62,315 nt of DNA from Candidatus Scalindua sp. (GCA_021776915.1 JAIQZU010000038.1:1-62315), one strand, 5' to 3'. Shown: positions 10,871 to 33,324, numbered from the stretch's first letter. The notes: generated by a model not told the origin, from the letters alone. Made by a program: numbers and translations.

Positions 10871-10873
10871 AAT

Positions 10874-11915: not shown

Positions 11916-11923
11916 GCGGGTTT

Positions 11924-11955
11924 GCGAAAAGTCCTCGGCGTCTTTTGTCAGGGGA
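11924..11955. repeat. Short dispersed repeat, copy 1
   Basis: AAAGTCCTCGGCG followed by a TTTTGTC-GGGGA segment recurs at 39192-39222. The two copies differ at a few positions and lie 27 kb apart, both in intergenic DNA. Confidence 0.45.
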
Positions 11956-12021
11956 AGCAAGGTTTTCCTCTCTTTCGAGAGGAGTCCAGAGTTGCCGAAT
12001 CTTTCAAGTTGCGTATTTCTT

Positions 12022-12039
12022 CGCAGGCTAAAGCCTGCG
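12022..12039. repeat. REP-like palindrome
   Basis: A perfect 8-bp inverted repeat, CGCAGGCT-AA-AGCCTGCG. A half copy (CGCAGGCTAAAG) occurs again near 60387. Confidence 0.5.
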
Positions 12040-12069
12040 GCTATATAAAATATTAAATTCCGGTCAGAA

Positions 12070-13530: not shown

Positions 13531-13541
13531 GTAAAGTTTGT

Positions 13542-14834: not shown

Positions 14835-14852
14835 ACAGATTTCCCTTTCTTT

Positions 14853-15488
14853 TTATATCCAACCTCTTAACTTGAAATAAATAATTGATCCATACTCTCG
14901 TAAAATTTCTAAAATAAATCTTGCTCTATGCGTTGCGTGTTGAAGATTTTTCTCATAACATGGTACAGGTGCAGGGTATACGTTTACACCCAATTTTTTA
15001 CAAATTGACAGGCTTCTATACATATGGTAAGAAGAAGTAACTAAAAGTGAGTTCTTTATATCTAACTGTTGTAATATAGGCTTCGCATACTTAATATTTT
15101 CGTAAGTATTCAGAGAATTGTTTTCCGTTATAATGCACTTCTTACTTATTCCGATCTCTACTAAAAAGTCTTTCATTACTTCTGCCAATGATGGTATCTC
15201 TTTAAAGTCTGCCCCTCCACATACAATTATCTTGTCTGCAAATCCTTTCTTATATAATCTATACGCATGAAGCATTCTTTGATAATTATTTTCAGTATGT
15301 ATTTTGCCAGTGTAGATTCCATTGCCGAGTAAAATAATGGCATCTGCTTTTTTAAATTCCGGTTCAACATCTAATACGGCATAAAGATAATTTGTTGCAG
15401 GAGTAATAACCAGTGATGAAGCAATTACGTTTAAACTAAGCAATAAGAAGAATAATAGCCTATATTTTGCAAATCTTTTTCCTGGCAC
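14853..15488 (-). CDS. YdcF/SanA-like (DUF218) membrane protein
   Basis: The protein has 211 aa and starts with GTG at 15488. One N-terminal transmembrane segment (LLFFLLLSLNVIASSLVI) is followed by a DUF218 domain: DAIILLGNGIYTG, YRLYKKGFADKIIVCGG, ENNSLNTYENI and LLVTSSYHMYRSLSICKKLG. ElyC/SanA/YdcF relatives act in cell-envelope carbon metabolism, and their chemistry is poorly defined. It is the first gene of the operon under P3 (leader ~37 nt). A paralogue is at 23864-24658, and both lie next to similar radical SAM genes. Confidence 0.83.
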   Translation of the reverse strand: MPGKRFAKYRLLFFLLLSLNVIASSLVITPATNYLYAVLDVEPEFKKADAIILLGNGIYTGKIHTENNYQRMLHAYRLYKKGFADKIIVCGGADFKEIPSLAEVMKDFLVEIGISKKCIITENNSLNTYENIKYAKPILQQLDIKNSLLVTSSYHMYRSLSICKKLGVNVYPAPVPCYEKNLQHATHRARFILEILREYGSIIYFKLRGWI

Positions 15489-15536
15489 TTATCAGACCTG
15501 TATAATTGACTAGAATTAAATCCAAAACATATGTAT

Positions 15537-15550
15537 GCTAAAATCATGCC
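15537..15550 (-). promoter_or_regulatory. Sigma-54 promoter P3
   Basis: The minus strand reads TTTTAGGCATGATTTTAGC with GG-N10-GC spacing. The expected transcript start is ~37 nt before the YdcF-like gene. Confidence 0.75.
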
Positions 15551-15685
15551 TAAAATGGTTTTAACTAATTGTTAGATGTTGAATTTATAACTATAGGAAT
15601 TATAAGGAGATGTGAATACTTATTGTGTTAGATAAACATCAATTAATATTATTTATTGTTGTCACGCTATCAACTTGTTCACAAT

Positions 15686-15712
15686 TTCAACATTATGTGG
15701 GAAATGTTTTCC
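15686..15712 (-). promoter_or_regulatory. Putative enhancer-binding-protein site for P3
   Basis: TTCAACATTATGTGGGAAAT followed by GTTTTCC is the best example of the shared element, with the palindrome-like core GGGAAA-TG-TTTTCC. Its centre is ~162 bp from the -12 GC. Confidence 0.6.
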
Positions 15713-15726
15713 TTGCTATTTAATAG

Positions 15727-17265
15727 TTATTCTGAACTCTTGCCCAGTTGGTTACCGACAAACATCATTCCTATATAATATCTCAAGAAACTTAATTTAC
15801 GGAAAATCGTAAATTCTAACCCTGGAGATATTTTATGAACAAATTTTGAGATGTTTGCAAGAAAACGATCAAACATTAGCATCAATGATATTAGAATATT
15901 TTTTTTTGCAATAAAATTACCATGATTTAGCGCTTTGAATTCAATGTAAAAATCCTTTAATTCTTCTATAGCTTTTTGGGGCAATTCAAAATAATTATGA
16001 TCAATAATATCAATCGTGTTTAATTCCAGAATTTGACCATAGTATGTACTCATTGTGTCGTTAAAGCCTTTTCGTAAATACCACTTATTAATTTTTGGGT
16101 ACTTATCATAATACATCGTTCCCGGCATGGGTTGTATAATATTCAAGTGGGTTACTTGGACATATTTCAATATGTTGCGTAATGCTTGTTTTTCTCTTTT
16201 TAACAGGTCATCTGTTTCAAATGGAAAACCTAAAAGAAAGTTGATGTGAACATCGATATTGTAGCGCTGTAGCAAGGAGAAACCTCTATGAACTTTCTTG
16301 ATATCAGCGTTCTTTTTAATCATTTTCAATGAGTATGGATCCAGCCTTTCCAAACCAATGGCCATCCTATGTACTCCAGCTTTCTTTAATAGTGAAAGCA
16401 ACTGCCCATCGTTTACTGTTTCAACTTTTGTCTGAACAACTAGCATGATTTTCTTATTTAATCCAGACTCAATCATTTTGTTACAAAAGTCAACAACTCT
16501 CTTCTTTGCAAGAAGAAAATTATTATCTACGATTGAGAAATACTTGGCACCATAATTTTCGTAACAATATACTAAATTGCGGAACATATAGTCGGCCGAT
16601 GCAAGACGGTTGTCTAATACCTGTTCTTCATTACTACAAAAGGTGCATTTAAATGGACATCCTCGCTGACCATTCAATATCATGAGTCCCTGCTCCTTTT
16701 TTGTTTTGAAGTAATCACTTAAATTAAATAAACTGTAATCAACAAAAGGGACGTTGTCTAGATTTTCTATCATTGGAAATTCAGTAGAAATGTGTAAAGA
16801 AGAATCGTCTCTAATAAATGAAATTCCAGGCACTGCTTCCAGTCCTGTTTTAAAGTCTTCTTTTGTTTTGCCTTGAAGATGCTTAAAAAGAGGGATTACA
16901 ACCATCTCTCCCTCTCTATTTACTACAACGTCTATGCTGTGTTCTAGTGCTTCTTCAAAACAATATTTCATATGTATTCCGCCAGCAACAATCAACATTT
17001 GGGGATATTTTTTTCTTACCTTTTCTATCAAGTCATATGTGATACGGGCAGTGGCGGTATTTATATTAAGTGCCAGAACATCAGGCTTATAGCGTTTGAT
17101 GATTTTCATCATATAATTGTCATTATAAAATGTATAAAGGGAATTATTATCAATGACCTTGACCTGGTGTCCTGCCTGGTGAAGAATAGTTGCAATAATG
17201 CCCATCCCATGGCTTAATGTTGGGGCAGGATAAAACATGGAATGTCTGACAAATATTATACGCAT
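15727..17265 (-). CDS. B12-binding-domain radical SAM protein
   Basis: The frame opens at 17283, but I prefer ATG at 17265 (MRIIFVRHSMFYPAP). GGGAG then lies 8 nt upstream and the conserved B12-domain start is directly at the N terminus. The product has 512 aa. Residues ~10-140 are cobalamin-binding-like (IIATILHQAGHQVKVIDNN, LIVAGGIHMKY). Cys203, Cys207 and Cys210 sit in GQRGCPFKCTFC. HRMAIGLERLDPYSLKMIKK and INFLLGFPFETDDLL follow the BchE-like pattern. The C-terminal ~100 residues are extra and unassigned. It is the last gene of the long operon from 29496. Confidence 0.85.
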   Translation of the reverse strand: MRIIFVRHSMFYPAPTLSHGMGIIATILHQAGHQVKVIDNNSLYTFYNDNYMMKIIKRYKPDVLALNINTATARITYDLIEKVRKKYPQMLIVAGGIHMKYCFEEALEHSIDVVVNREGEMVVIPLFKHLQGKTKEDFKTGLEAVPGISFIRDDSSLHISTEFPMIENLDNVPFVDYSLFNLSDYFKTKKEQGLMILNGQRGCPFKCTFCSNEEQVLDNRLASADYMFRNLVYCYENYGAKYFSIVDNNFLLAKKRVVDFCNKMIESGLNKKIMLVVQTKVETVNDGQLLSLLKKAGVHRMAIGLERLDPYSLKMIKKNADIKKVHRGFSLLQRYNIDVHINFLLGFPFETDDLLKREKQALRNILKYVQVTHLNIIQPMPGTMYYDKYPKINKWYLRKGFNDTMSTYYGQILELNTIDIIDHNYFELPQKAIEELKDFYIEFKALNHGNFIAKKNILISLMLMFDRFLANISKFVHKISPGLEFTIFRKLSFLRYYIGMMFVGNQLGKSSE

Positions 17266-17342
17266 CTCCATTTTCTCCCACATTTTTTAACAATCGAATA
17301 TAATATCAAAATAATATTCCTTAGAATAAGATGAACAATTAC

Positions 17343-18851
17343 TTAGCAAGCTCGTTTTACTGCTCTGAAAATTGAGCTTAAGAAGCTATATTTTCTACAA
17401 GAAGTTGATGGTTCAGTTATTATTTCCATGACATATTTTTTTACTGTAAGTTTAAATGCATTTTGCATCTCTAATTGATATTTAGGTTTCAAGTAAAAGA
17501 AGAATACAAGAAGATCCCAGAAGAAAACTAATTTCTTGTGCTTTATTCCTTCCCAGACATATTTTTTAATCTGATAGTTTCTTGCCTTATTATAAAATGA
17601 TTTTATTTGCCTTGATGTGGCATATTTTGATTTCATAACCGGTGCAGAATACATAACCTGAGAATCCTTAAATTTATTCATCTCCACTAATTTTTCTCTT
17701 TCACATATTTTTTTTATTTCTGTACCAGGTAAAGGCATCAATATTGAAAACATAATGGTGTTAGCATCAATTTTCTGAGCCATTTCAAGGGTTGCTTCCA
17801 TCGTCTCTACGGTCTCGAATGGAGCGCCGATTATAAACTGGGTGCTTAGTTGCAGCCCGGCATCTTTTATTATTCTAACCGCATTCATTATTTGTGATTT
17901 GCTCATATTTCGTTTATATATTTTGTTTCTTATAAAATCATCACTTGATTCGATCCCCATGCCAACCTGATAACATCCGGCTTCCTTCATTGAATGAATA
18001 ATCTCTTCGTCAACAAGATTTGCCCTCACACTTGACGTCCATTTGACCTTTTCGTTATAACCTCTTTCCTTATACTTTCTGCAAAATTCAAGGACCCACT
18101 TCTTGTTAAGAATAAAAATATCGTCTATAAAATAAATATATTTAAACCCTCTAGAAGAGTAGTTCTCAATAACATTACCTACTTCATCGAGAATATTATC
18201 AACACTTCTAAATCTGACGTATTTACCATTCAATGCTTTATTTAATACATGATTACTGCAATACGTACATGAGTAAGGGCACCCACGTGATGCCATCAAA
18301 GTAAGGTGGTTATTATTAACCAGGAAATATTTCTCTAATTCAAAGTCGTGCCATTCAGGAAAAGGAAAAGTATCTAGTGTTTCGGTGACATTTCTTTTTT
18401 TATTTTTAATTATCTTTCCATTGTCTCTATACCATAATCCCTGAATTTCCTGACAATTCAGATTATTGTCCAATATTTCCTTCAGAACATATTCACCTTC
18501 TCCTGTGCAGACAATATCAACATCATTTTGTGTCATTACTTCATCTGGTTCTAAAATAGCATGTACACCGCCAAAAATGATTTTAATACAGTAGTTGTCC
18601 TTAATATATGATGCGATCTCCAGTGCCTGGAAAAAATCGAAAGACATTACAGAAATACCAACCAAATCCGGTTTCTCGTTCTCTATTTCATTTTTCAAAT
18701 ACTGTTTCCATGTATTTTTATAAAATGTGAGATCTGATATCTTTGCTTGATGCTCTGTACAATTCTTTATAAAGGAGCTTAGCAATGCAACATTAAATGG
18801 AGGCGATCCTACCCGTCCTTCTATATTTGGAACTACTAACAGTATTTTCAT
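17343..18851 (-). CDS. B12-binding-domain radical SAM protein
   Basis: The protein has 502 aa. Cobalamin-binding-like residues are at ~60-125 (DLVGISVMSFDFFQALEIA, KIIFGGVHAILEPDEVM). The cluster cysteines are Cys191, Cys195 and Cys198 in SRGCPYSCTYC. IYFIDDIFILNKKWVLEFC, VGMGIESSDDFIRNKIY and FIIGAPFETVETMEATLEMA complete the core. The tail is basic and unassigned. It lies 77 bp upstream of a second B12 radical SAM gene and 3 bp downstream of the flippase-like gene, suggesting joint work on a lipid-linked precursor. The substrate is unknown. Confidence 0.86.
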   Translation of the reverse strand: MKILLVVPNIEGRVGSPPFNVALLSSFIKNCTEHQAKISDLTFYKNTWKQYLKNEIENEKPDLVGISVMSFDFFQALEIASYIKDNYCIKIIFGGVHAILEPDEVMTQNDVDIVCTGEGEYVLKEILDNNLNCQEIQGLWYRDNGKIIKNKKRNVTETLDTFPFPEWHDFELEKYFLVNNNHLTLMASRGCPYSCTYCSNHVLNKALNGKYVRFRSVDNILDEVGNVIENYSSRGFKYIYFIDDIFILNKKWVLEFCRKYKERGYNEKVKWTSSVRANLVDEEIIHSMKEAGCYQVGMGIESSDDFIRNKIYKRNMSKSQIMNAVRIIKDAGLQLSTQFIIGAPFETVETMEATLEMAQKIDANTIMFSILMPLPGTEIKKICEREKLVEMNKFKDSQVMYSAPVMKSKYATSRQIKSFYNKARNYQIKKYVWEGIKHKKLVFFWDLLVFFFYLKPKYQLEMQNAFKLTVKKYVMEIITEPSTSCRKYSFLSSIFRAVKRAC

Positions 18852-18854
18852 TAT

Positions 18855-19883
18855 TTATAATCCTTGCGTTGTTAATTTTTCTCTATCAAATAATATATTT
18901 CTGTTGCGTCTGGAATACAGATTGTGTACCAATAATGTTAAGCTTGAGGCTACAATAATTGCCAGATTTGAAAAGATCCTTGCACTGATAACAAAAAGTA
19001 CTATCTCCGGATCTGATATACTTGCCCATGAAAGCACACCATACCACCCCAATTCACCCAGACCAAGTTGCGCAGGAATGAATGAGATTAATCCTATCAG
19101 TAACATTAATGAAGAACAGAGAAGCAGTACCAGGTAATTCATCTCAATCCCTAATACCAGAACTATGAAATAAAGCCGAAGAGCAATCAAAAAGTGTCGA
19201 ATAAATCCTATTACTAATACCTTTCTTGCAATTTCCGGTCTTATATTAAAATCTTCTGCAGATACTAACGTATGTGAACGTTTAATTTTAAGAAGTGGTA
19301 TACGATAACTCAATCTGACTAACCATGAGTATGTATAAGCACAGGCTGATAGTATATGTCCGTTGAAGCGGCAAAAGATTATGGAAAATGAAGCCATGCA
19401 CACCAGTACCATAAGTAATGTGTGAAACAATGAAAACTTCATCAAGAGAAAAGCTATTGCCGGTAGAACGAATACAAGGCTTATCATAACATTTAAAAAC
19501 TGGTCCAGTAAGACTGAGTATGCTCCGGTCTTGAATGGAACGCCATGTGTATTTTTAAGAGAATAGCTTCTCACTCCTACGTCACTGACAGCCTGTGGTA
19601 TTACAAGTGCAAAAAGGTAGCCCATAGCAACGTGATGATATAGATGGCCAAACGAGATATTTATATTACTCCCGATTAAGTCTCCGGCAATATATCTCCA
19701 CTTTAACGTAGTAATGTAGTAAAAGATTGCTGTAAACGCTGAAACACCCAGCAGGAGGATCCATCCACCGTCCATAATCCTGCTAGTTACGTCTTTCCAT
19801 GAAAAGTCTGCCAGATGGAAAAACAGTGCAATCAAGCCAGATCCGATTAATAGTCCATAAAATTCTTTTTTTTTGTAAAACAT
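18855..19883 (-). CDS. Flippase-like/lysylphosphatidylglycerol synthase TM-region (UPF0104) protein
   Basis: A polytopic protein of 342 aa with about eight hydrophobic segments and little else. Recognisable pieces are VSDVGVRSYSLKN, TGAYSVLLDQFLNV and SFIPAQLGLGELGWYGVL, the signature PxxxGxxE-like loop of the UPF0104/AglD-like family. Family members transport or flip lipids in the inner membrane. Its stop region overlaps nothing, and its start shares one base with the stop of the methyltransferase at 19883. In this context it may move a lipid-linked glycan or a modified lipid. Confidence 0.82.
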   Translation of the reverse strand: MFYKKKEFYGLLIGSGLIALFFHLADFSWKDVTSRIMDGGWILLLGVSAFTAIFYYITTLKWRYIAGDLIGSNINISFGHLYHHVAMGYLFALVIPQAVSDVGVRSYSLKNTHGVPFKTGAYSVLLDQFLNVMISLVFVLPAIAFLLMKFSLFHTLLMVLVCMASFSIIFCRFNGHILSACAYTYSWLVRLSYRIPLLKIKRSHTLVSAEDFNIRPEIARKVLVIGFIRHFLIALRLYFIVLVLGIEMNYLVLLLCSSLMLLIGLISFIPAQLGLGELGWYGVLSWASISDPEIVLFVISARIFSNLAIIVASSLTLLVHNLYSRRNRNILFDREKLTTQGL

Positions 19884-20488
19884 TATTCTTTCTCAAATAA
19901 TATCAGTCTGGAAGTATTGAGAATTAAAGGCTCATTTTTAATTGCACGAAAACCATTTCTCTCGAATACAGATATAAAATCTTTGATTTGATAATTATAT
20001 TCAAGCACGATGTTTGATCCGCGAAGTGTCTGTGTAACATAAGCAAGTGTTCTACCGGTAAAAGAATCGTGATTTGGCTGCATTATCAAAACATAGCGTT
20101 TGCTGATACGCATCATATGTTTGGCAAAAGGTTCAAAATTCAGAAAATGTTCCAACATACCTTCGGCTGCAACTAAATCATACTGTTGTGTCTCATCTTC
20201 AACTTTTCCAAGCCTTGCGTTCAGATTCATATGTTTGCAAACCTCAATTGACCTGGGCGAAACATCAAGACCAACATAGTCCAATCCGGATTCATGAAAA
20301 AGCTCAAGGAGATAACCAAAACCGCAGCCCACATCTATGGCTGTATTGATATCCAGTTCCTGAAAAGTTCTTCTCAAGGCTCTCATTCTGATAGGGCAGA
20401 ATATACGGCCTATCGGTGTTAGACTTCTTTCCTTTGCCCAATGTTTATCCCATGTGTCATAGAGTACTTCGTCTTTTTGCTTTATCAT
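19883..20488 (-). CDS. SAM-dependent methyltransferase (paralogue of the one at 10253)
   Basis: The protein has 201 aa. SAM motif AIDVGCGFGYLLELF, acidic loop VGLDVS, motif IV DLVAAEGMLEHFLNFEPFA. It matches the 10253-10870 protein from end to end, including QPNHDSF-GRTLAYV and FERNGFRAIKN. It lies 14 bp after the radical SAM gene (20503) and overlaps the flippase-like gene by one base, so translation is probably coupled. Duplication of this gene together with its radical SAM neighbours suggests that two related substrates are processed. Confidence 0.85.
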   Translation of the reverse strand: MIKQKDEVLYDTWDKHWAKERSLTPIGRIFCPIRMRALRRTFQELDINTAIDVGCGFGYLLELFHESGLDYVGLDVSPRSIEVCKHMNLNARLGKVEDETQQYDLVAAEGMLEHFLNFEPFAKHMMRISKRYVLIMQPNHDSFTGRTLAYVTQTLRGSNIVLEYNYQIKDFISVFERNGFRAIKNEPLILNTSRLILFEKE

Positions 20489-20502
20489 AAGTGGTTTCCT
20501 TT

Positions 20503-21600
20503 CTAATTTAATTCACTGAATACATCCTCTGCCTTTACAGGATAAGGATCGGTTTCATATGTTTTAGATAAGCATGACTCTATGAATTGTTCATCATCAG
20601 ATGGCGGACAGCCGGTATATGATTCATTAAAATATTTAACTCTTCGCCCACGGTTAATAATTGTCTGTAGATCGTCTCGTCTTAAATTTCCAAAAGTAAA
20701 ATGGGCAGCATTACAAGGTAATACGTCTCCATACGCAGTTATTGTAATTAAGCCGTAAAATGCGGGACAGGTACTATCTTTGCTTCCGACACAGGTTCTT
20801 TGAAGGAAAGAATATTTACGGTGAAGTGTGTGTAAAGCATTTCTATCTTCCTGCGTTACTAAACTGTCAATATCACCTTCCAATGCGCCCAGGGGTATGG
20901 CGGTTTTAAAGCCTGTCCGGATTCTGTGTTTAATAGCGTAATTAACCAGGCTGTTAAAATCATCAGTTTTAGTAAAGTTTTTATAAACGAATATTGTAAT
21001 ACTAGACCCCATGCCTACTTTTTTGCATAGATTAATAGTATTAAATGCGCTCTGGTACGACCCTTTTTTTCTTCTCAGATCATCATGTATTTCAGGGTCC
21101 CAGCTATCTATGGAAACATTTATTTTGTCAACACCGGTATCGAGTAAATATTTGATTTTGTTTTCAGTAAATCCGTAACCATTACTGGCTAATGTTATGT
21201 ACGTGCTTTTCGGTCGACAGGCTTTAATTAACTCAGGAAGCTCAGGATCCAGAGAGCTTTCACCACTGACAAAGTCAAACGTCAGTGCCCCTGCTTTTAA
21301 GCAATCAGAAATATATTTTTTCTTTTCACTTAAGGTTAATGGGACTTCGTTAGTTCTGTTAAAGTTTGTCTCGTAGCAATGACGACAACTGAAGTTACAT
21401 TTGTAATGTGTATGAAATAGAATTGATCTCAGTGGCTTAGATTTGCAGAAATGCTGAATAAACGGCCTGAAGAGCATTCTCGAAAGAAAAATAGGCTTCT
21501 TAAGTATCAATCTTGGCGTGATCAATGACAATTTATTACTGACATCTTGTAAATTTACTGGTATTCTCATAGTCGTGTTTGCTTTCTTATTTCTTACCAT
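20503..21600 (-). CDS. Radical SAM protein with SPASM-like C terminus
   Basis: The protein has 365 aa. Cys68, Cys72 and Cys75 sit in HYKCNFSCRHCYE. DFVSGESSLDPELPELI replaces the usual GGEP motif. INVSIDSWDPEIHDDLRRKKGSY and CPAFYGLITITAYGDVLPCNAAHFTFGNLR supply late cysteines for auxiliary cluster binding. It is more distant from the 13542/24698 pair than those are from each other. Its first 14 bases overlap the end of the methyltransferase gene at 21587, indicating coupling. The substrate is unknown; a sugar or peptide is inferred. Confidence 0.85.
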   Translation of the reverse strand: MVRNKKANTTMRIPVNLQDVSNKLSLITPRLILKKPIFLSRMLFRPFIQHFCKSKPLRSILFHTHYKCNFSCRHCYETNFNRTNEVPLTLSEKKKYISDCLKAGALTFDFVSGESSLDPELPELIKACRPKSTYITLASNGYGFTENKIKYLLDTGVDKINVSIDSWDPEIHDDLRRKKGSYQSAFNTINLCKKVGMGSSITIFVYKNFTKTDDFNSLVNYAIKHRIRTGFKTAIPLGALEGDIDSLVTQEDRNALHTLHRKYSFLQRTCVGSKDSTCPAFYGLITITAYGDVLPCNAAHFTFGNLRRDDLQTIINRGRRVKYFNESYTGCPPSDDEQFIESCLSKTYETDPYPVKAEDVFSELN

Positions 21601-22366
21601 CGCTTAATCTGGCAACAAATACCCACGAACCAGCCAATGAGTGTGGGACGTAATTGGCCAGTTTACATTCAAGATATTTTAACGCACGAAAGCACTTCCA
21701 ATCCAAAAACAAGCCAAGTCCCACATTAACTATATCAAGTAGTTCAAAACCACATTCAGTTAGTAAATATTTAAACCTGTGAAATAGAAAGAACTGAACA
21801 TGGTCACAGAAAATATTTAAGCTGTGATATGGGGTATCCGATCCGGTCAAAGCTGTATATATTTTTTTGGGTAATTTGTGAAATATTTTAGTGATCCTCA
21901 TTCTTTGGCATATTCTGCTGAACAAAATTTCGTAGATTGAATATCCATTGGGAATATTTATTATGGTAATGCCATTCTTGCCAATATACTTTTCTATTGT
22001 TTTCAGTAAGAGTGGTGGTTGTGGAACATGTTCCAGTACTCCAATGCAGATTACAACATCAAATTGTTCTTGCAAATCAAGAATTGCCCCGTCTGCTGCT
22101 AAATATTTTGCATTTGAGAATGTATTGTTTTTTTTACACCATTCTATTGATTCTGAATGTATATCAACACCAGTTATCCTGTGTCCAAGATAACTCAATG
22201 GAAAGGAGATACCGCCTATTCCACAGCCCAAATCAAGAATCCTGAGTGAATCTTTTTTTATTTTTCTGGCAAACATAGAAACCTGTTCTACAACTGAAAT
22301 AAGTGTGCGAATTGCCAGTTCATCTTTGTAATGAGAATATTCTAGATAATCGTAACAATTAGACAT
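21587..22366 (-). CDS. SAM-dependent methyltransferase (UbiG-like)
   Basis: The protein has 259 aa. RILDLGCGIGGISFPLSYLG is the SAM loop, TGVDIHSESIEWCKK the acidic loop, and FDVVICIGVLEHVPQPPLLL motif IV. KNGITIINIPNGYSIYEI follows. The C-terminal third is longer than in UbiG and slightly hydrophobic (FHRFKYLLTECGFELL, then SLAGSWVFVARL). Its end overlaps the following radical SAM gene by 14 bp. This is probably O-, N- or C-methylation of a glycan or lipid intermediate; the exact substrate is not visible. Confidence 0.85.
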   Translation of the reverse strand: MSNCYDYLEYSHYKDELAIRTLISVVEQVSMFARKIKKDSLRILDLGCGIGGISFPLSYLGHRITGVDIHSESIEWCKKNNTFSNAKYLAADGAILDLQEQFDVVICIGVLEHVPQPPLLLKTIEKYIGKNGITIINIPNGYSIYEILFSRICQRMRITKIFHKLPKKIYTALTGSDTPYHSLNIFCDHVQFFLFHRFKYLLTECGFELLDIVNVGLGLFLDWKCFRALKYLECKLANYVPHSLAGSWVFVARLSDGKK

Positions 22367-22443
22367 AAATTTAATTCCATTTATATGGTTATGATTAATA
22401 TCCTTATTGACACTATGTTAAATTAATTCACTAAACGCTTACA

Positions 22444-23829
22444 TCACAAGATATTTTTTGATATCAAATCTTTAATAATTGTATGAGCAATCTTTTCCTT
22501 ACCCTGTTTGTTGTAGTGGATGGCATCTTTTACATATACTTTATCTGCATGAGGCATATCTTTAAGAATGTATGCAAGATTTTCAAAATGACCATGGTTA
22601 TCTGCGTTTAAATCAGAGTACATTTTCTCTGCTTTTTCATAAAGCCCTTCTGTTGGAACCAGAAATCTTCCGCCAAATCGATTCCAATGCTTATTCTCTG
22701 TAAAGAAATTGACTGCAAAATAATTGAAATTTGGATAGTTAAAAGATTCAGGAACAGGGTGAGGATAGTACTTATCCAGAAGCACCGGTTGGAGATATGA
22801 GATGTAATTTATCTCTCTGATCTCAGCAGCGCCATAGAAATCCAGTATGCAGCTTTTGTAAGCGTCAATGATGTCTTTCTCGGTTTTCTCCTTAAGTTTA
22901 TACTTGTTTGCCGATGCAATTTCGATAATCTTCTCTTGAGATGGTGCATTCTGTACAACATTTCTTGCTAATTCTAAGCCAGCCTTAATTGTGTATGGGA
23001 ATATTGGCGATATATAGTTGATAACACTCATATATGACATCTTTGCTAAAGAAGAAAATGTCTGTGACAATGATCTTCCAAAGCTGTCCAGGTTTCTCAT
23101 ATCAGTATCAAGTTGTTGATGGTAACCGTGATATTGGCTGTACCATACAGGTGAATTCTGGTTCTCACTCTCCATAAATCCCATAATTCTGGCCCATATA
23201 TCGTTAACTCCATCAAGAGACAATACAAGATCAGGCTTAACACCAGACTTAATCAATTCAGGCAGAATCCAGCTTGTAAAATATATTTTCTCGTTGAAAG
23301 ACATATACCCCCAATGCCCGGCATTTAAAACAACAATGTCCTTATCAACATTTTCTTCTTTTGCATATTTTATAAGATACGTTGGCCAGTTGTCTTTTAC
23401 TGTTGTAGATCCGCCAAAGGTTACTATCAAGAACTTGGATTCTAAATTGTCCAGAGATCCTCCATACCATTCTATTGCATTATTTGCTCTAAATCCCATT
23501 ACGGGATCAAAGGGAAAGGTCATATAATTACCTGTTGCATTTGTTGGCAGGGCACGAGGGAACATTTTCCTTATTTCATTGCTGCTCAAGCGGAATTGAG
23601 CAGGAAATTTCTTTGTCATTTTCTCTGTATTAAAGTAATCGATAGTCGTCTCAGTTTTTAGAACTGTAACAAGCAGCAAGAAACTTACTAATTCAATCAC
23701 TACTGTACAAACACCCCATATAATAAAGAGAAACAAGAGGTGTTTGAGTGTAACCTTGTAATTCTCCGGGGAAAATTTACTTAAAAAAGATTTAACAATT
23801 TTGCTTGTCTGCATAGTTATTGTTCTCAT
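22444..23829 (-). CDS. Membrane-anchored SGNH/GDSL hydrolase-like protein
   Basis: The protein has 461 aa. One transmembrane segment at ~30-57 is followed by an extracytoplasmic SGNH-like domain: IVTFGGSTT (Ser141 as block I nucleophile), VLNAGHWGYMSF for block II, VLSLDGVNDIW for block III, and near the C terminus DAIHYNKQG with Asp and His of block V. Such proteins remove or transfer acyl groups on surface polysaccharides. It lies between the YdcF-like gene and the UbiG-like methyltransferase. There is a 77-bp gap downstream, but no terminator is visible. Confidence 0.82.
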   Translation of the reverse strand: MRTITMQTSKIVKSFLSKFSPENYKVTLKHLLFLFIIWGVCTVVIELVSFLLLVTVLKTETTIDYFNTEKMTKKFPAQFRLSSNEIRKMFPRALPTNATGNYMTFPFDPVMGFRANNAIEWYGGSLDNLESKFLIVTFGGSTTVKDNWPTYLIKYAKEENVDKDIVVLNAGHWGYMSFNEKIYFTSWILPELIKSGVKPDLVLSLDGVNDIWARIMGFMESENQNSPVWYSQYHGYHQQLDTDMRNLDSFGRSLSQTFSSLAKMSYMSVINYISPIFPYTIKAGLELARNVVQNAPSQEKIIEIASANKYKLKEKTEKDIIDAYKSCILDFYGAAEIREINYISYLQPVLLDKYYPHPVPESFNYPNFNYFAVNFFTENKHWNRFGGRFLVPTEGLYEKAEKMYSDLNADNHGHFENLAYILKDMPHADKVYVKDAIHYNKQGKEKIAHTIIKDLISKNIL

Positions 23830-23863
23830 ACAAAAAGACTAATATTAAATGTTTTGCTGTTTG

Positions 23864-24658
23864 TTATCTTTCCGAAAAAAATATTTCATATAATTCTTTA
23901 TCTTCATCATGAGATCTACCCTTGCTTTTATCCCATACAAAAGTTGAGGGATTTGAAAATCTGTCTGTAAGATAAAAATATGGTATCCCGAAAATAATTT
24001 CGTTTGCTACTCTTCTGAAAATATGGAATCTTCGTCCCCAGTCTTTTGTAAACTCGTAATGTTCGCCGGTAACAACTATCGGGTTTTTAATTTCACTCTC
24101 AAGACATTTATTCAGACGGTAACTTTGATCCGAGGAGGTTACAAAGATTGCACGATCAAAATCAAACATGATCTTATATTTTTCCATCATATCTAAAAGA
24201 TTCTCATAATAATTTAATTTGCCACGGACCTGGTCCTGAACAATAATATCTTCTTCCGGTACACCATAAAGAAGCAACCTTTCTTTAATAGCCTGTCCTG
24301 TTGTCATGTTGGAGTTTGGCATCCATATGCCGCCAAAGGCAATTATTTTGTCTGCGTATCCGTCACGGTAGAGTCTTAATCCTTTTTCCATTCGTACCAG
24401 AGTGCTAAGATCCGGAAGGCCGGTTTCTGTATCGAATGGAAAATTTGAAGAACAGATTATGATAACATCAGCATTCTCTGGAGGCTCTTTGTTAACCAAC
24501 ACAAGTTTATGGGCCCATTCATTCAGAGGGGTAAATAAAATAGAGAAGAGACCAATATTTATTGATAAAGAAAAAAACATGATTGTAATTAAAGCAACTC
24601 TCAAGCATATTGCTTTATTACTGCGGTTGAGCTTATCTGAAACTGATATTGTTTTCAT
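23864..24658 (-). CDS. YdcF/SanA-like (DUF218) membrane protein
   Basis: The protein has 264 aa with one N-terminal transmembrane segment (~18-40). The DUF218 domain is ADVIIICSSNFPFDTETG, LRLYRDGYADKIIAFGGIW, EEDIIVQDQVRGKLNYYENL and FVTSSDQSYRLNKCLESE. It is longer than the paralogue at 14853 and has a C-terminal extension (IIFGIPYFYLTDRF onward). It lies 34 bp before the SGNH hydrolase gene and 39 bp after a radical SAM gene. Envelope function is inferred from the family. Confidence 0.82.
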   Translation of the reverse strand: MKTISVSDKLNRSNKAICLRVALITIMFFSLSINIGLFSILFTPLNEWAHKLVLVNKEPPENADVIIICSSNFPFDTETGLPDLSTLVRMEKGLRLYRDGYADKIIAFGGIWMPNSNMTTGQAIKERLLLYGVPEEDIIVQDQVRGKLNYYENLLDMMEKYKIMFDFDRAIFVTSSDQSYRLNKCLESEIKNPIVVTGEHYEFTKDWGRRFHIFRRVANEIIFGIPYFYLTDRFSNPSTFVWDKSKGRSHDEDKELYEIFFSER

Positions 24659-24697
24659 CTTATATGCCAGTCAGTTAATGTAATAATATAGAATTCT

Positions 24698-25978
24698 CTA
24701 GTTATGAAGTTCAGGATAAACTATTTTATCGTGTTTCTTTTCATATTGTCTCAATGCATGACTGAATTCGTTTATGTTTAAGTGAGATTTCTTTTCAAGC
24801 TGAGTGTAATAAACATTCATAAAATCTTTGTCTAATGCCAGAAAGCATGGGCGATATTCGCCAAAGGGTGTCTCCTTTAAGGCTCTGTTTCTAATCTGTG
24901 CCAGGGACTCTTCTCTTACATTACCAAAATATATATGCATATTTGCACAGTTCATAATGTCACCATATGGCGTAAACTGCATCATCTCCTTGGTCCCGTT
25001 ACAACCATGTGCTCCATAAGCAGCTTGTGTGTCATGGTGAACAAATGCGTATGGATACGGTTCTACAATTTTATCAAATGCTTTGAAGTCTTCAGAATCC
25101 AGCATTGAACTGTTTCCTTTGAAATTACCGATTGATTTCGCAAAAAGACAATGAACCATTATTTTCTCTCTGTCACCGAATTCTAATATTTTTATGAAAC
25201 CTTCTGTGTATAAATTATGCTTATGTACAACCGTATTTAAGATTACTTTAATCCCGTACTTTCTGCAGAGCTTTATTGCGTTCATAACCTTGTCAAAACT
25301 ACCTTTTTTCTTTCTAAACAGATCATGTATCTCAGGTATTCCGTTATCCAGACTGAAATTAACAGTGTCTACCCCCAGTTCTGAGCATTTCTTTGCTATT
25401 TTTTCATTAAAAAGCCATCCATTTGTTGAGATGAGAATATGATTATATTTCCCTTTACATGCTTCAATTATTTCTCCCCACCCTTTATGCATAAAGGGTT
25501 CTCCGCCTTCAAGCCCGAATGAAGTAGCTCCAAGCTTCATAGCCTGCCTGACAATATCTTTATATTCATCAACCTCAAGAATTTTCTTATTTATATCTTT
25601 GTCGAGTCGTGCGGTAGAGCAATGTGAACAGGTAAAGTTACACTTAAAAGTTATGTCAAATTCACATCCTCTCAGGATAAATTTCTTTTTCCCCAAATAT
25701 ACGTACAACCTGCTTAACAAAATGTTTCTTGCCAGCCTGAATGGATAAAATGGTTTAGTCCAGTGAATTCCGTAATGAAACATCCATCTCAATCTACTAA
25801 GTTTGTTGTATAAAGGTCTTACTTTTCTGATAATCTTGATCTCTTTTTTCAATGACTCCTCTTCTGCCTGCCTGAGGACCTTTTTTACGCACTCAATCTC
25901 CTGTGGCGTTTTGAATACTTTTCTGATCTCTTCTTCCGTTACACCGGAAATTACTTCATTTTGCAGTTTCGCAATCAT
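24698..25978 (-). CDS. Radical SAM protein with SPASM-like region (paralogue B)
   Basis: The protein has 426 aa with a strong ribosome site (GAGGAG) before the ATG at 25978. Cys113, Cys117 and Cys120 sit in FKCNFTCSHC. GLEGGEPFMHKGWGEII matches paralogue A at 13542, and so do the N-terminal block FHYGIHWTKPFYPFRLARN and the late block MQFTPYGDIMNCANMHIYFG. The two are full-length paralogues that each neighbour a YdcF-like gene. Here an SDR enzyme lies directly upstream, which favours sugar oxidation or epimerisation, but that is inference. Confidence 0.87.
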   Translation of the reverse strand: MIAKLQNEVISGVTEEEIRKVFKTPQEIECVKKVLRQAEEESLKKEIKIIRKVRPLYNKLSRLRWMFHYGIHWTKPFYPFRLARNILLSRLYVYLGKKKFILRGCEFDITFKCNFTCSHCSTARLDKDINKKILEVDEYKDIVRQAMKLGATSFGLEGGEPFMHKGWGEIIEACKGKYNHILISTNGWLFNEKIAKKCSELGVDTVNFSLDNGIPEIHDLFRKKKGSFDKVMNAIKLCRKYGIKVILNTVVHKHNLYTEGFIKILEFGDREKIMVHCLFAKSIGNFKGNSSMLDSEDFKAFDKIVEPYPYAFVHHDTQAAYGAHGCNGTKEMMQFTPYGDIMNCANMHIYFGNVREESLAQIRNRALKETPFGEYRPCFLALDKDFMNVYYTQLEKKSHLNINEFSHALRQYEKKHDKIVYPELHN

Positions 25979-25995
25979 ATTGATCTCCTCAATTT

Positions 25996-26844
25996 CTAAT
26001 AATTTGCCATTGCTGTTTTTTTGTCAGGATATTTTTTGACAAAATTCCGATTCTTATCAGCAATAATTTTATCAAGTGTTCCTGGTGCCCAGTAACTGAG
26101 GTGATATCCAATTTTGTCTTTTAAGGTACTCAAGTTAATTTCTGAATCTCCTCTTTCAATAGCCTCGCATATTTTTGTTGCTACAAATGAAGGATCACGC
26201 AGGCCATTACCAGCAGGTAGTTTAAAGTCACTGATTCGTCCATCAACATCAGTATTCTCCCAGTAATTTGACTTAAAACTTCCTGGTCTGATACGCAGTG
26301 TCTTTACATTTGTGCCGGATAATTCAGTTTTCAGGCTTTCGTGAATTGCACCTAAAGCACATTTTGAAGCACAATAAGAAGAAACACCGGGAAACGCGTG
26401 GTACATTATTGAACTCATTACATTAGCAATGACACCTTTATTGTGATTTATCATGTCCGGCAGAGCGCATTGAATCAAGGCAATGGGAGCCAGGGTATTA
26501 ACACGATAATTTTTATTGTACACCTCTACCGGTGTATTCTGCACAAAACCTGCCACCTGGTAGCCGACATTATTAATCAGGATAGTAGGGGTCTTTCCTA
26601 CTTCTTGAACTATCTCTTTATAAAATTCTGGAATTTGTGAAATATTCTCCAGGTCAAAGCAGTAATAATAACCGCTTCCACCACTCCCATTGATCTCATT
26701 AGTGACTTCTTTTAATACCTCTTCATTTCTAGCTATAGAGATAACGGTAGCATTTAATTCACCTGCCATTAACGCTAATGCTTTTCCAAGGCCGGAGCTG
26801 GCGCCCGTAACAAATATGACTTCATTTTCCCAATTAAATTCCAT
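25996..26844 (-). CDS. Short-chain dehydrogenase/reductase
   Basis: A classical SDR of 282 aa. VTGASSGLGKA binds NAD(P), NNVG is at ~91-94, and the catalytic pair is Tyr157 and Lys161 in SSYCASKCALGAIHESL, with a Ser just before. It has a strong GGGGGAGG ribosome site. It lies in the long operon between the heptose genes and radical SAM paralogue B. The substrate could be a sugar or an acyl/keto lipid; the sequence does not decide. Confidence 0.87.
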   Translation of the reverse strand: MEFNWENEVIFVTGASSGLGKALALMAGELNATVISIARNEEVLKEVTNEINGSGGSGYYYCFDLENISQIPEFYKEIVQEVGKTPTILINNVGYQVAGFVQNTPVEVYNKNYRVNTLAPIALIQCALPDMINHNKGVIANVMSSIMYHAFPGVSSYCASKCALGAIHESLKTELSGTNVKTLRIRPGSFKSNYWENTDVDGRISDFKLPAGNGLRDPSFVATKICEAIERGDSEINLSTLKDKIGYHLSYWAPGTLDKIIADKNRNFVKKYPDKKTAMANY

Positions 26845-26933
26845 AGGAGCCTCCCCCTTGTTGACAAAATATTTTGATGATAGGGCAACTATTCACATTT
26901 TCTTTTAATATTTATTTGCACGATTAAAACAAT

Positions 26934-27524
26934 TTAATTATCACTGGCTACACGTTGTTTCAAACACTGAGAAATCATGTGTACCAGAATAAGATGCATA
27001 TCTTCTACACGTCCATAATCCGTGCTATCAACAACTATTCTCTCATCTACAATAGTTTTTAATTTACCCCCATCAAAACCAATAAGACCTACTGAGATTG
27101 CACTATTTCTATGGGCGCACTCTACCGCTTTCAAAATGCTGGGAGAGTCCCCTGATGCGGTTATGGCAATTACTACATCACCCGGGTTTAGTAAATTTAT
27201 TAATTGTTCTTTGAATACTTCTTCATAGCTAATATCATTAGATAAGGCTGTGACTAGCGCCATATTATCGTTCAAACTCATTACACGCAGGCGTTTTTTA
27301 TCTTCCACAATTGCTCCCTTGCCCAGGTCACAGGCAAAATGAGAAGCTGTTGATGCACTCCCGCCATTTCCCATAATAAAAACCTGTTTATCCTCTAAAT
27401 AGGCTGACCATAGGATATCTACTATTCGGTCGACTCTATCCAGATTTAATTTATCAAGGGAATATTTAAGGTTCTCGATATATGACGTGATAAACGATTT
27501 TGTTGAGTTACATAGAATTGCCAT
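26934..27524 (-). CDS. gmhA: SIS-domain sugar isomerase, phosphoheptose isomerase-like
   Basis: The protein has 196 aa. The SIS fold is clear: VFIMGNGGSASTASHFACDLGKG (residues ~48-70), DVVIAITASGDSPSILKAVE, and a late region GRVEDMHLILVHMI. This is the GmhA/DiaA pattern. GmhA converts sedoheptulose 7-phosphate to D-glycero-D-manno-heptose 7-phosphate. The gene overlaps the heptose kinase gene by some bases, and hddC lies just upstream, which favours GmhA over DiaA. Confidence 0.85.
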   Translation of the reverse strand: MAILCNSTKSFITSYIENLKYSLDKLNLDRVDRIVDILWSAYLEDKQVFIMGNGGSASTASHFACDLGKGAIVEDKKRLRVMSLNDNMALVTALSNDISYEEVFKEQLINLLNPGDVVIAITASGDSPSILKAVECAHRNSAISVGLIGFDGGKLKTIVDERIVVDSTDYGRVEDMHLILVHMISQCLKQRVASDN

Positions 27525-28521
27525 TGTTTAGAATAGTTACTCCTTTTTCAGAAAAATTAAAATCCAGGAATCCCAGCTTTTCAGCTTCCAAAGCACTTTT
27601 GAGATTACCCTGTTTGTCCTCTTCACAATAAAACATGAAATACCCGCCGCCTCCGGCACCTGCGATCTTGCCCCCCAGAGCTCCGTTTTGCATGGCAATT
27701 CCATAAATACGGTCCAAATATTCATCTGTAATTCCGGAACTCATCTTTTTCTTAGAATTCCATGCTTCATCTAACAGTTTTCCAAAACGTTTAAGGTGAC
27801 CTCCTTCGAGTGCTTCTTTAATAAGATAAGCGTTATTCTTGACCTCAATCATTGCTTCGATAACAGAATTATTATTGTCTTTAATTGAATCTTCCTGTCG
27901 CTGTAAGATTGTTGATGCCTGACGGGTTTTTTTTGTGAAGAAAAGTAATAAATTCTTTTCCAGGCATTTTTTTACATCCGGATCTATTCGGATTGGTTCT
28001 ACAGATACATCTTTTTCTGAAAATTCAATAAAGTTCAAACCGCCGAATGCAGCGGCATATTCATCCTGCTTTCCGATAGGGAGGTTTAGTATTTCTCTTT
28101 GTATAAAATATGCATCCTCAGCAATCTGGCGTTGAGTCAGTTTTTCATTCTTTAGTTTAGAGCAAAGATTTACCATATTTACAGTTACAGCGCCTGAAGA
28201 ACCAAGTCCGCTTCCGGGAGGGATTTCAGAAGCCGTAAATAGATCGAACCCGTGATATAGTCTATAATGTTTAATTACAGCACTAGGGATATCAAAACCT
28301 TCGCCAAATTTCAGGCTGTAAAAATCATCCACCGCTAGAAGAGATTGAAAGTCTGATGAAATCATCTGAATCTTTTCATCTTCACGAGGGTTATAGAAGC
28401 TGTAAAAATACTTGTTAATCGTAATGCTTACTACAGCGCCGCCATATTTTTCGTAAAAACCAGGTATATCAGTGCCGCCACCGCCAAAACTGATACGGAC
28501 CGGAGCTCGTGTAATAATCAT
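27508..28521 (-). CDS. hddA: GHMP kinase, D-glycero-D-manno-heptose 7-phosphate kinase type
   Basis: The frame opens with TTG at 28530. I chose ATG at 28521 (MIITRAPVRISFGGGGTD) because it gives the family's normal N terminus and GGGAG lies 12 nt upstream. PPGSGLGSSGAVTVNMVN is the GHMP ATP loop, and GGKIAGAGGGGYFMFYCE is the C-terminal motif. HddA kinases act in the GDP-D-alpha-D-heptose route. Its 3' end overlaps gmhA, and hddC is upstream. The phosphatase gmhB, needed between kinase and guanylyltransferase, is not in this window. Confidence 0.87.
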   Translation of the reverse strand: MIITRAPVRISFGGGGTDIPGFYEKYGGAVVSITINKYFYSFYNPREDEKIQMISSDFQSLLAVDDFYSLKFGEGFDIPSAVIKHYRLYHGFDLFTASEIPPGSGLGSSGAVTVNMVNLCSKLKNEKLTQRQIAEDAYFIQREILNLPIGKQDEYAAAFGGLNFIEFSEKDVSVEPIRIDPDVKKCLEKNLLLFFTKKTRQASTILQRQEDSIKDNNNSVIEAMIEVKNNAYLIKEALEGGHLKRFGKLLDEAWNSKKKMSSGITDEYLDRIYGIAMQNGALGGKIAGAGGGGYFMFYCEEDKQGNLKSALEAEKLGFLDFNFSEKGVTILNNGNSM

Positions 28522-28773
28522 TTCGTTCAAATGCTCCCTATTTTTTTATCAACGAGATTACTAAGACGCTAAGAAGTAAAAAACAAAGAGCAGGCATTTG
28601 AAATAAAAGTCTTTTTTTAGAAATCTTGTGGATAAGATACATTTTATACTCCTTATACAGTAAACCTGGTTTCGATTCTTCATGTACACAATCTGCCGTA
28701 TGAGCAATTCTAATATTAATCCTTCCTTTTTATTAGAAACTGTCTATGCTTTATATTCTTTTACTTTGCGCCT

Positions 28774-29496
28774 TTATGCCTTAGTGGCAAAAAGTTGATT
28801 ATTTGCATAATCTTGAAACGCCTTCAGCCGTTCCGGTGTTCCGATATCATAAAATCTTTCCCGGGTTACAAAACCGGCACATTGCTGTCTTGCAATCAAA
28901 TCAGGGAAAATATCTTTTTCAAGAGAAACCTCTCGATCAGAAGGTACTATATCTAAAATCTCTTTTTTCAAGACCAAGACGCCGGCGTCTACATATTTCA
29001 GCATCCTGTCAGAAGAATCTTTTTTATATTGGGCTACTGCACCATATTCATTAAGACAAACGTTGTTTGGAACAGTAGTATCTTCCTGGTTATCATACAA
29101 TACCATCAAAACCGTTTTATCAATTTCAAGAAAATGCTTTTCTATTGATAAATAGTTTATTGGCAGATAAGAATCCCCATAAATCAGGAAGAAACTATCA
29201 TGCAGTTGATTCATGGCATTCTTTAATGCGCCACCTGTACCAAGGGGTTTTTCCTCATGAGAGTATGTAATGCTCAAATCCATGGACTGACCATTACCAA
29301 AGTGGTTTTGTATCTTTTCACCCAGATATCCAACGCAAAGTAGAATATCAGTTATGTTATAATTTTTCAGATACTGAAGCTGGTATTCCAGGTATGGCCT
29401 TCCCATAACGTGGATCATTGGTTTGGGCGTTTTCAGGGTTAGTGGCCTGAATCTCGTTCCCAACCCACCAGCTAGAATTACCGCTTGCATTGACAT
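28774..29496 (-). CDS. hddC: Nucleotidyltransferase, heptose 1-phosphate guanylyltransferase type
   Basis: The protein has 240 aa. VILAGGLGTRFRPLTLKTPKPMI is the nucleotide-binding signature of sugar-nucleotide transferases, PLGTGGALKNAM follows, and FLIYGDSYLP carries the metal aspartate. The family also includes glucose- and mannose-1-phosphate enzymes. The hddA and gmhA genes directly downstream favour HddC. It is the first gene of a ~14-kb operon and is preceded by sigma-54 promoter P4. A 252-bp spacer to hddA holds no gene. Confidence 0.78.
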   Translation of the reverse strand: MSMQAVILAGGLGTRFRPLTLKTPKPMIHVMGRPYLEYQLQYLKNYNITDILLCVGYLGEKIQNHFGNGQSMDLSITYSHEEKPLGTGGALKNAMNQLHDSFFLIYGDSYLPINYLSIEKHFLEIDKTVLMVLYDNQEDTTVPNNVCLNEYGAVAQYKKDSSDRMLKYVDAGVLVLKKEILDIVPSDREVSLEKDIFPDLIARQQCAGFVTRERFYDIGTPERLKAFQDYANNQLFATKA

Positions 29497-29594
29497 AGGA
29501 AAAACACATATTTTCAGGTTTAAATTTATACCTATTTATAGCCTGGAAAATAATGCATAAATGGTAAATACACAGAATTTTGTTATTCTATTTA

Positions 29595-29608
29595 GCTAAA
29601 ATCATGCC
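29595..29608 (-). promoter_or_regulatory. Sigma-54 promoter P4
   Basis: The minus strand reads TTTCGGCATGATTTTAGC with GG-N10-GC spacing. It drives the hddC-hddA-gmhA-SDR-radical SAM operon with a ~87-nt leader. Confidence 0.75.
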
Positions 29609-29740
29609 GAAAAACTTATATATTTCCAGCAAAAAAACTTTTGATAATTGGCTACAATAAAAGGACTTACATGAAATAATTGTGTAGGAATGTTTCAGGA
29701 TGAGATATCTTCTTTTTTTCTGTATCAACCTGTATATTTT

Positions 29741-32035: not shown

Positions 32036-32079
32036 GATTATTTACTTAAAGATTTGAAATCGGTTAAGAATTGCAATAT

Positions 32080-32457
32080 TTATTCGCATGTATCTGCGCG
32101 AATCTGTGCCCTGATTTCCTTATTACGTTCAACCTCTCGATTAAGAAAAGTTATTTCCTGTGCCAGTTTCTTAGATATGTCCATAAGCCCGGAGATTACC
32201 ATTGCAAAATGGATGTTAATTACCAGTAGAGAAAATAATATGAAAAACAAGACAATCTCAATCCATGAATCTACTCTCAAAAGTTTCATAGATAAGTCTA
32301 TTGCGCCGGGCCAGAACATTAAAACCAGGAAACCCAGGCCGAATACAAGCCAAATCCAAGAAGCACCGGTCTTGAGTTTGCTTCCATAGATCAACCTGAT
32401 TATTAAGCAAAACATTATTATTGATAATAACCTGATTATTAATTGTTTTGATTCCAT
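32080..32457 (-). CDS. DUF2304-like small membrane protein
   Basis: The protein has 125 aa with three hydrophobic segments (LLSIIMFCLIIRLIYG; WIWLVFGLGFLVLMFWPGAID; IEIVLFFILFSLLVINIHFAMVI) and a coiled C-terminal helix (ISKKLAQEITFLNREVERNKE). This matches the layout of DUF2304, a family that is regularly adjacent to DPM1-like GT2 enzymes. Here it sits 35 bp downstream of one. It probably anchors or assists polyprenyl-phosphate sugar synthesis. Confidence 0.75.
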   Translation of the reverse strand: MESKQLIIRLLSIIMFCLIIRLIYGSKLKTGASWIWLVFGLGFLVLMFWPGAIDLSMKLLRVDSWIEIVLFFILFSLLVINIHFAMVISGLMDISKKLAQEITFLNREVERNKEIRAQIRADTCE

Positions 32458-32492
32458 GTGTAAGAATTATACCAGATGATAATTTAAGAGAA

Positions 32493-33293: not shown

Positions 33294-33324
33294 AAATCAT
33301 TTCGTCTTCAAAATATTTCTTTAA

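Follow-up and report, generated by a model that had tools for sequence, protein, structure and literature searches.

The analysed window is a whole contig (C32) of 62,315 nucleotides from the 3.79-Mb, 95% complete genome (G000) of a Candidatus Scalindua sp. (GCA_021776915.1, JAIQZU010000038.1:1-62315), a member of the anaerobic ammonium-oxidizing (anammox) Scalinduaceae. Beside flagellar genes, it carries a locus in which GmhA-, HddA- and HddC-like genes, the trio of a guanosine diphosphate (GDP)-heptose-type pathway, run together with radical S-adenosylmethionine (SAM) enzymes and glycosylation genes. An initial annotation had described positions 15727-29496 as one operon of thirteen open reading frames (ORFs), and all thirteen are present at their positions on the minus strand. 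Pfam and NCBIfam back their classes, i.e., four radical SAM proteins, two methyltransferases, an LPG_synthase_TM/UPF0104 protein, a DUF218/YdcF protein, a short-chain dehydrogenase/reductase (SDR) and the GmhA-, HddA- and HddC-like proteins. The limits of that block, however, are arbitrary, as co-directional genes extend both ways, over 8027-15488 and 29942-37749. The genome holds 70 radical SAM genes, six of which lie within 12070-25978 against 0.26 expected, a figure that is descriptive only because the expectation comes from a uniform model; in this simple sense, the clustering is not due to chance.

Six loci were compared, namely that of the window, those of Candidatus Brocadiaceae bacterium S225 (G009), Scalindua rubra (G014) and Scalindua sp. 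SCAELEC01 (G016), an anammox contig assigned to a Maribacter metagenome-assembled genome (MAG) (L036, JAAETN010000435.1), and a locus from a Chloroflexi groundwater MAG (L040). The window genome and S225 are two of one genus among them, and the Scalindua-type contig L036 was probably mis-binned into the MAG named Maribacter sp. The trio occurs together with a conserved shell of other genes in the five Scalinduaceae loci and the Chloroflexi locus (GmhA was not seen at the SCAELEC01 locus), which bears out the linkage, first noted in the window, between heptose-type genes, sugar-modifying enzymes and lipid-carrier glycosylation genes. Genes outside 15727-26844 are orthologous and well conserved across the anammox loci; between the window and S225, all seven reciprocal best hits in the compared stretch (74-95%) are shell genes, and none is from the interior. 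The shell consists of the following genes:

10253 to 10870, minus strand: methyltransferase (PF13489; 72-76% in relatives, 45% in L040)
10874 to 11863, minus strand: GT2 glycosyltransferase (PF00535; 75-86% in relatives)
12070 to 13530, minus strand: B12-binding-domain radical SAM enzyme of an HpnJ-like subfamily (76-87% in relatives, 58% in L040)
13542 to 14834, minus strand: SPASM radical SAM enzyme with a C-terminal Cys motif (PF04055; 95% in S225, 88% in S. rubra, 40% in the Chloroflexi locus L040)
14853 to 15488, minus strand: YdcF/DUF218 protein, ElyC-like (PF02698; 74% in S225)
26934 to 27524, minus strand: GmhA-like SIS-domain phosphoheptose isomerase (69-78% in relatives)
27508 to 28530, minus strand: HddA-like GHMP sugar kinase, start codon uncertain (83-89% in relatives, 65% in Chloroflexi)
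28774 to 29496, minus strand: HddC-like sugar-1-phosphate nucleotidyltransferase (66-73% in relatives)
29942 to 32035, minus strand: PMT-like membrane transferase with tetratricopeptide (TPR) repeats (PF13231 below cutoff, TPR; 52-69% in relatives)
32080 to 32457, minus strand: DUF2304 membrane protein (PF10066; 67-84% in relatives)
32493 to 33293, minus strand: GT2 resembling polyprenyl-phosphate-sugar synthases (PF00535; best NCBIfam models PpgS and dolichyl-phosphate hexose transferase, both below cutoffs)

The trio had been said to overlap or adjoin; hddA and gmhA do overlap, by 17 bp, whereas hddC and hddA are separated by 243 bp. The Chloroflexi version is compact and runs GT2, DUF2304, membrane transferase, HpnJ-like radical SAM, HddC, HddA, methyltransferase, SPASM radical SAM, YdcF, UPF0104, GT2, GmhA. 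In S. rubra, the shell SPASM radical SAM gene has a second, incomplete copy (L034:3331-3681), and a frame change divides a YdcF gene (L034:5732-6351); both reflect either decay or assembly error.

The interior, 15727-26844, is different in content in every strain compared. Since it makes up most of the stretch first annotated, that annotation had looked mostly at the variable part. In the window it holds:

15727 to 17283, minus strand: B12-binding-domain radical SAM enzyme (PF04055 and PF02310)
17343 to 18851, minus strand: B12-binding-domain radical SAM enzyme (PF04055 and PF02310)
18855 to 19883, minus strand: UPF0104/LPG_synthase_TM membrane protein (PF03706, TIGR00374)
19883 to 20488, minus strand: methyltransferase (PF13489; 53% paralogue of 10253-10870)
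20503 to 21600, minus strand: radical SAM/SPASM protein (PF04055 and PF13186; 47% homologue in SCAELEC01)
21587 to 22366, minus strand: class I methyltransferase (PF13489/PF08241)
22444 to 23829, minus strand: SGNH-motif membrane protein
23864 to 24658, minus strand: YdcF/DUF218 protein (PF02698; 46% homologue in SCAELEC01)
24698 to 25978, minus strand: radical SAM/SPASM protein (PF04055 and PF13186; 57% paralogue of 13542-14834)
25996 to 26844, minus strand: SDR oxidoreductase (PF00106; 51% homologue, in SCAELEC01 only among the compared loci)

The SGNH assignment stands on its motifs: blocks I, II, III and V (GGST, NAG, GVND and DAIH) are present and invariant in the 49%-identical SCAELEC01 homologue, whereas neither a Pfam search nor a PDB sequence search returned anything, and the fold model was unusable (predicted local distance difference test, pLDDT, 32). 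A PDB sequence search with the SDR at 1e-20 gave nothing useful. Pooled over the five anammox interiors, 24 of 45 ORFs are radical SAM genes, which fall into 17 families at a 40% identity threshold; the cassettes vary from 3 to 12 genes, and SDR, aminotransferase and methyltransferase genes accompany the radical SAMs. The window interior is closest to that of SCAELEC01 (five genes, 46-56%) and the S225 interior to that of S. rubra (five genes, 47-65%); interior kinship thus crosses genera, though the window genome and S225 are congeneric. The interior has a GC content of 35.4% vs. 37.8-40.1% in the flanks. As the paralogues listed above share their regions (10253-14834 and 19883-25978) with a YdcF gene, a methyltransferase/radical SAM/YdcF module seems to have been duplicated inside the locus.

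The same site is occupied by other cargo in relatives, and its borders are set by outer flanks and a flagellar anchor:

8027 to 9841, minus strand: glycosyltransferase-like protein with TPR repeats (TPR Pfam families; 66% in SCAELEC01, 86% in G001)
33325 to 34740, minus strand: TPR and GT1 glycosyltransferase (PF00534; homologues 3' of flgL in G001, G008, G010, G007, S. rubra and SCAELEC01)
34981 to 36696, minus strand: Gfo/Idh dehydrogenase-hexapeptide acyltransferase fusion (PF01408 and PF00132; 72-94%, 3' of flgL in relatives)
39229 to 40131, minus strand: flgL-type flagellar gene, which anchors the site and starts the flagellar block (PF00669; same neighbourhood in relatives)

The upstream neighbours, 39229-53243, are flagellar genes; the locus adjoins flgL in the window and in S225, and in S. 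rubra it is split over contig ends. The genome G001, of the same genus and without the heptose block, keeps the outer flanks, i.e., a transglutaminase-like gene (76%), the Gfo/hexapeptide fusion (84%) and homologues of the TPR glycosyltransferase at 8027, the GT1 at 4663 and the GT2 at 3130 (86% each), and between these flanks carries a SPASM radical SAM, an asparagine synthase, a formyltransferase and a methyltransferase. In G008, G010 and G007, the flgL-side genes are partly kept, and beyond them lies other glycan cargo or none. Such conserved flanks around exchanged cargo are typical of polymorphic glycan loci. Elsewhere in the window genome and in S225 (L111 and L112, on G000:C50 and G009:C13), the main flagellin gene directly follows a gene for a TPR protein or a GT2-type protein, a possible candidate for a flagellin glycosyltransferase.

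The locus is preceded by one promoter-like element:

29594 to 29609, minus strand: sigma-54-type -24/-12 element CGGCATGATTTTAGCT (GG-N10-GC), about 113 bp upstream of hddC

This element recurs 5' of hddC in S225, SCAELEC01 and L036, at -74 to -115 (-74, -99 and -115), and in the alignment of four genomes including the window, 14 of its 16 columns are invariant vs. 40 of 239 outside it. The textbook sigma-54 consensus with two mismatches is not enriched in its matches (31 vs. 28.3 expected), and CGGCATGATTTTAGCT fits that consensus poorly; the pattern YGGCAYNNNNNTWGCW (YGGCAY-N5-TWGCW) has five matches in the window, all intergenic, vs. 0.44 expected. Because this pattern was chosen after the window had been seen, the weight falls on how well the element is conserved in the three other genomes, and this conservation makes the single sigma-54 promoter proposed ahead of hddC plausible despite the poor consensus fit. 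Other sigma-54-like elements lie at 2623-2638, 9924-9939, 48289-48304 and 53532-53547, all intergenic; two precede flagellar genes (47421-48134 and fliK, 51072-53243), and that at 9924-9939 precedes the TPR glycosyltransferase gene at 8027.

Co-directional arrangement of the trio, the B12-binding-domain radical SAMs, the methyltransferases and the UPF0104 gene behind this one element is what favours the reading first given to the block, in which the four radical SAM proteins of the block and its two methyltransferases would form a dedicated pathway that converts GDP-heptose to a carrier-lipid-bound heptose, either branched or C-methylated; a B12-binding domain is, moreover, typical of C-methylases. 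However, in strains of the same family the trio is accompanied by wholly different sets of radical SAM enzymes, and because the radical SAM/methyltransferase set is replaced by others in this way, one fixed pathway is unsupported. The terms "C-methylated" and "branched" find no direct support either, as the solved structure closest to the shell's conserved B12-radical SAM enzyme belongs to a dehydratase of sugar diols rather than to a methyltransferase. We consider such a dedicated pathway unlikely.

By homology, the HddA-like kinase is the firmest member of the trio: its best PDB match is Campylobacter jejuni HddA (4n3o, 194 bits vs. 79 bits for fucokinase), and heptose kinases lead its matches as for an HddA-type anomeric kinase, with a score under the NCBIfam equivalog cutoff. 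The GmhA-like protein matches C. jejuni GmhA best (1tk9, 98 bits by phmmer), and its top matches are phosphoheptose isomerases; it retains the C-terminal His, and at the position of the known GmhA Glu, it and all relatives examined have Asp. The HddC-like protein scores 92 bits against the heptose-pathway enzyme 6jq8/5xhw, and its score on the NCBIfam HddC model (130 bits, cutoff 300) is exceeded by that on the mannose-1-phosphate guanylyltransferase model (154 bits), with other nucleotidyltransferase models equal or higher. Searches of the complete genome set with PF08645 and TIGR00213 found no GmhB, which had been noted as absent from the window, and TIGR00213 had no match in S225, S. rubra, G059 or G001 either. 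In the distant planctomycete G519, a histidine phosphatase gene (L105:13124-13729) directly follows HddC-HddA-GmhA, and its product may substitute for GmhB; in the window genome, only weak, generic homologues of it were found, which is not decisive.

These data leave some room for a different nucleoside diphosphate (NDP) sugar as the product of the trio, in which case the locus would serve glycan synthesis without making heptose. The HddC-like protein scores mannose-1-phosphate guanylyltransferase and MurU above HddC, all three trio proteins fall far below equivalog cutoffs, the genome is without a GmhB match, and the GmhA-like protein has Asp for Glu. However, the HddA-like protein fits characterised heptose kinases far above other GHMP kinases, the GmhA-like protein finds phosphoheptose isomerases first, and a phosphatase of the G519 kind could replace GmhB, so that we judge a different sugar to be rather unlikely. 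Because HddA is firm, GmhA has the Asp, HddC is undistinguished by score and GmhB was not found, the GDP-heptose-type product originally proposed is likely but unproven: the homology of the trio speaks for it, whereas the missing GmhB and an HddC-like protein no better matched to HddC than to others speak against it. In the Chloroflexota G271 and G310 (L107 and L108), HddA/GmhA-like genes lie, by eye, beside ATP-sulfurylase-like and APS-kinase-like genes, which suggests a sulfated sugar there.

The signature enzyme of the shell, the B12-radical SAM protein 12070-13530, lies just outside the stretch first annotated. Its nearest NCBIfam model is HpnJ (TIGR03471), at 392 bits below the cutoff of 577.6, and bona fide HpnJ proteins (745-750 bits) are encoded separately in S225 and S. 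rubra, by which HpnJ itself is ruled out. An AlphaFold model built from 13 sequences (pLDDT 84) has AprD4, the enzyme of apramycin C3'-deoxygenation, as its top Foldseek match (E 5e-24); AprD4 (6fd2) is also the best sequence match (E 3.8e-32) and the best in VIA-align (Z 31.9 over 416 residues, root-mean-square deviation 3.1, 22% identity; next Z 25.6). However, the cluster motif CxxxCxxC is invariant in the 13 sequences, whereas AprD4 has CxxxCxxxC, and membership of the AprD4 family is therefore not claimed. The protein is thus related to HpnJ yet distinct from it, with AprD4 as the nearest solved structure. AprD4, a radical SAM sugar diol dehydratase, acts on a pseudodisaccharide together with the reductase AprD3 (PMC5461906), and HpnJ makes a cyclitol ether from bacteriohopanetetrol glucosamine (PMC12583986). 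Since both act on attached sugars, we propose that 12070-13530 alters a carrier-linked sugar; reductase partners as for AprD4 are conceivable, given the SDR and epimerase genes in the interiors. In more distant Brocadiales, the HpnJ-like enzyme occurs in other polysaccharide-type clusters, often adjoining further B12-radical SAMs. In a Brocadiales relative (L054, G053:C1:4998-6218; L025), the HpnJ-like radical SAM gene is degraded (10 in-frame stops), as is HddA (1 stop).

The kinship with HpnJ, the top NCBIfam model, whose substrate is a sugar on bacteriohopanetetrol, could also mean that the HpnJ-like enzyme, the UPF0104 protein and the methyltransferases modify a heptose-bearing composite hopanoid or a related membrane lipid. 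A lipid head-group pathway of this kind is quite improbable in our view, as the score is under the cutoff with true HpnJ encoded apart, hpnI/hpnK-type genes were not found among the window proteins scanned, and the locus has a patchy distribution in the family and is set amid glycoprotein-type glycosyltransferases. The likeness to AprD4 and the abundance of radical SAMs would likewise suit a cluster for a secreted, aminoglycoside- or nucleoside-like small molecule with a heptose unit; we hold this to be very improbable, since the polyprenyl-phosphate GT2, DUF2304, PMT-like and TPR glycosyltransferase genes are present, the site beside the flagellar genes is conserved, and no resistance or export genes of such a type were seen in the window. 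A ladderane pathway was also considered: TIGR04072 matches are weak, and since ladderanes are general in anammox bacteria whereas the locus is patchy in the family, it was rejected.

Our preferred explanation, which on the gene content we regard as probable, is a polymorphic surface-glycan locus beside the flagellar operon, driven by sigma-54, in which a heptose-type precursor would be diversified by exchangeable radical SAM cassettes. The sigma-54 promoter before hddC would drive transcription of the locus. GmhA, HddA, a phosphatase and HddC would then provide a GDP-heptose-type precursor, and the polyprenyl-phosphate GT2 with DUF2304, the PMT-like transferase, the other glycosyltransferases and the TPR-bearing ones would pass sugars to a lipid carrier and on to an acceptor at the cell surface, for which a protein of the flagellum or the S-layer is plausible. 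The enzyme 12070-13530, with the SPASM radical SAM, the methyltransferase and YdcF, may carry out a radical change of the sugar, e.g., a deoxygenation or ring rearrangement, after which the strain-specific interior cassette would determine the final structure. Of all this, the data themselves show the gene content, the division into shell and interior, the exchange of cargo at one site and the conservation of the sigma-54 element. The more specific form of this idea, that a conserved heptose/lipid-carrier shell has its own AprD4/HpnJ-like subfamily and that exchanged cassettes yield strain-specific flagellum or surface sugars, is tentative and perhaps doubtful as a whole.

Several points weigh against the preferred explanation. 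The glycan, its acceptor and the enzyme activities are predicted from the genes, the interiors compared are five versions only and mostly from MAGs, the sigma-54 pattern was adjusted after the window had been inspected, and no GmhB homologue was found. The flagellin of the window genome is encoded elsewhere (G000:C50), the heptose block and flgL of SCAELEC01 are on separate contigs, and the Chloroflexi genome G059, which carries the shell, has no flagellin-domain match, so that the shell is independent of flagella. For the last two reasons, a flagellar acceptor is only suggested.

Dehydratases, epimerases, aminotransferases and acetyltransferases are the usual components of surface-glycan loci that differ among strains. 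The present locus resembles flagellar or surface glycosylation islands and O-antigen-type loci in its conserved flanks, its strain-specific, glycosyltransferase-rich cargo, its flagellar neighbours and its sigma-54 promoter, whereas its cargo is mostly radical SAM genes and its shell occurs also in a flagellin-less genome. It resembles the GDP-D-glycero-D-manno-heptose pathway of the C. jejuni capsule and the Aneurinibacillus S-layer in having GmhA-, HddA- and HddC-like genes in one cluster, but differs from it in two respects. First, no GmhB was found genome-wide here, whereas C. jejuni has gmhB, although also outside its capsule cluster (PMC10680097). Second, radical SAM enzymes would modify the sugar downstream, whereas in C. 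jejuni this task falls to dehydratases, epimerases and reductases (PMC10680097). The S-layer of Kuenenia stuttgartiensis shows that anammox bacteria bear heavily modified, methylated O-glycans; that glycan, however, is rich in N-acetylhexosamine with a putative dimethyl-deoxyhexose, and heptose is unreported (PMC5088730). In the library searched, four papers mention both anammox and heptose, none with a title on anammox surface glycans, and a search joining radical SAM to heptose, glycosyltransferases or B12, to flagellin glycosylation islands or to O-antigen gave nothing relevant. A second glycan locus of the window genome (L110, G000:C83:168000-187999) holds, by eye, NeuA/NeuB/NeuC-like genes with two B12-radical SAMs, GT2s and large membrane transferases. 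In this genome, surface-sugar genes are thus once more accompanied by radical SAM enzymes.

Thus, the locus is of a known kind, a polymorphic surface-glycan locus, and what is new is a variable cargo dominated by radical SAM enzymes. To our knowledge, very few sugar substrates of radical SAM enzymes have been described, and this locus offers about 17 uncharacterised families of such enzymes that probably act on sugar-type substrates. Its hosts are anammox bacteria of ecological importance, and very little is known about their surface chemistry; the gene content of the locus suggests that these bacteria may vary their surface sugars by radical chemistry.

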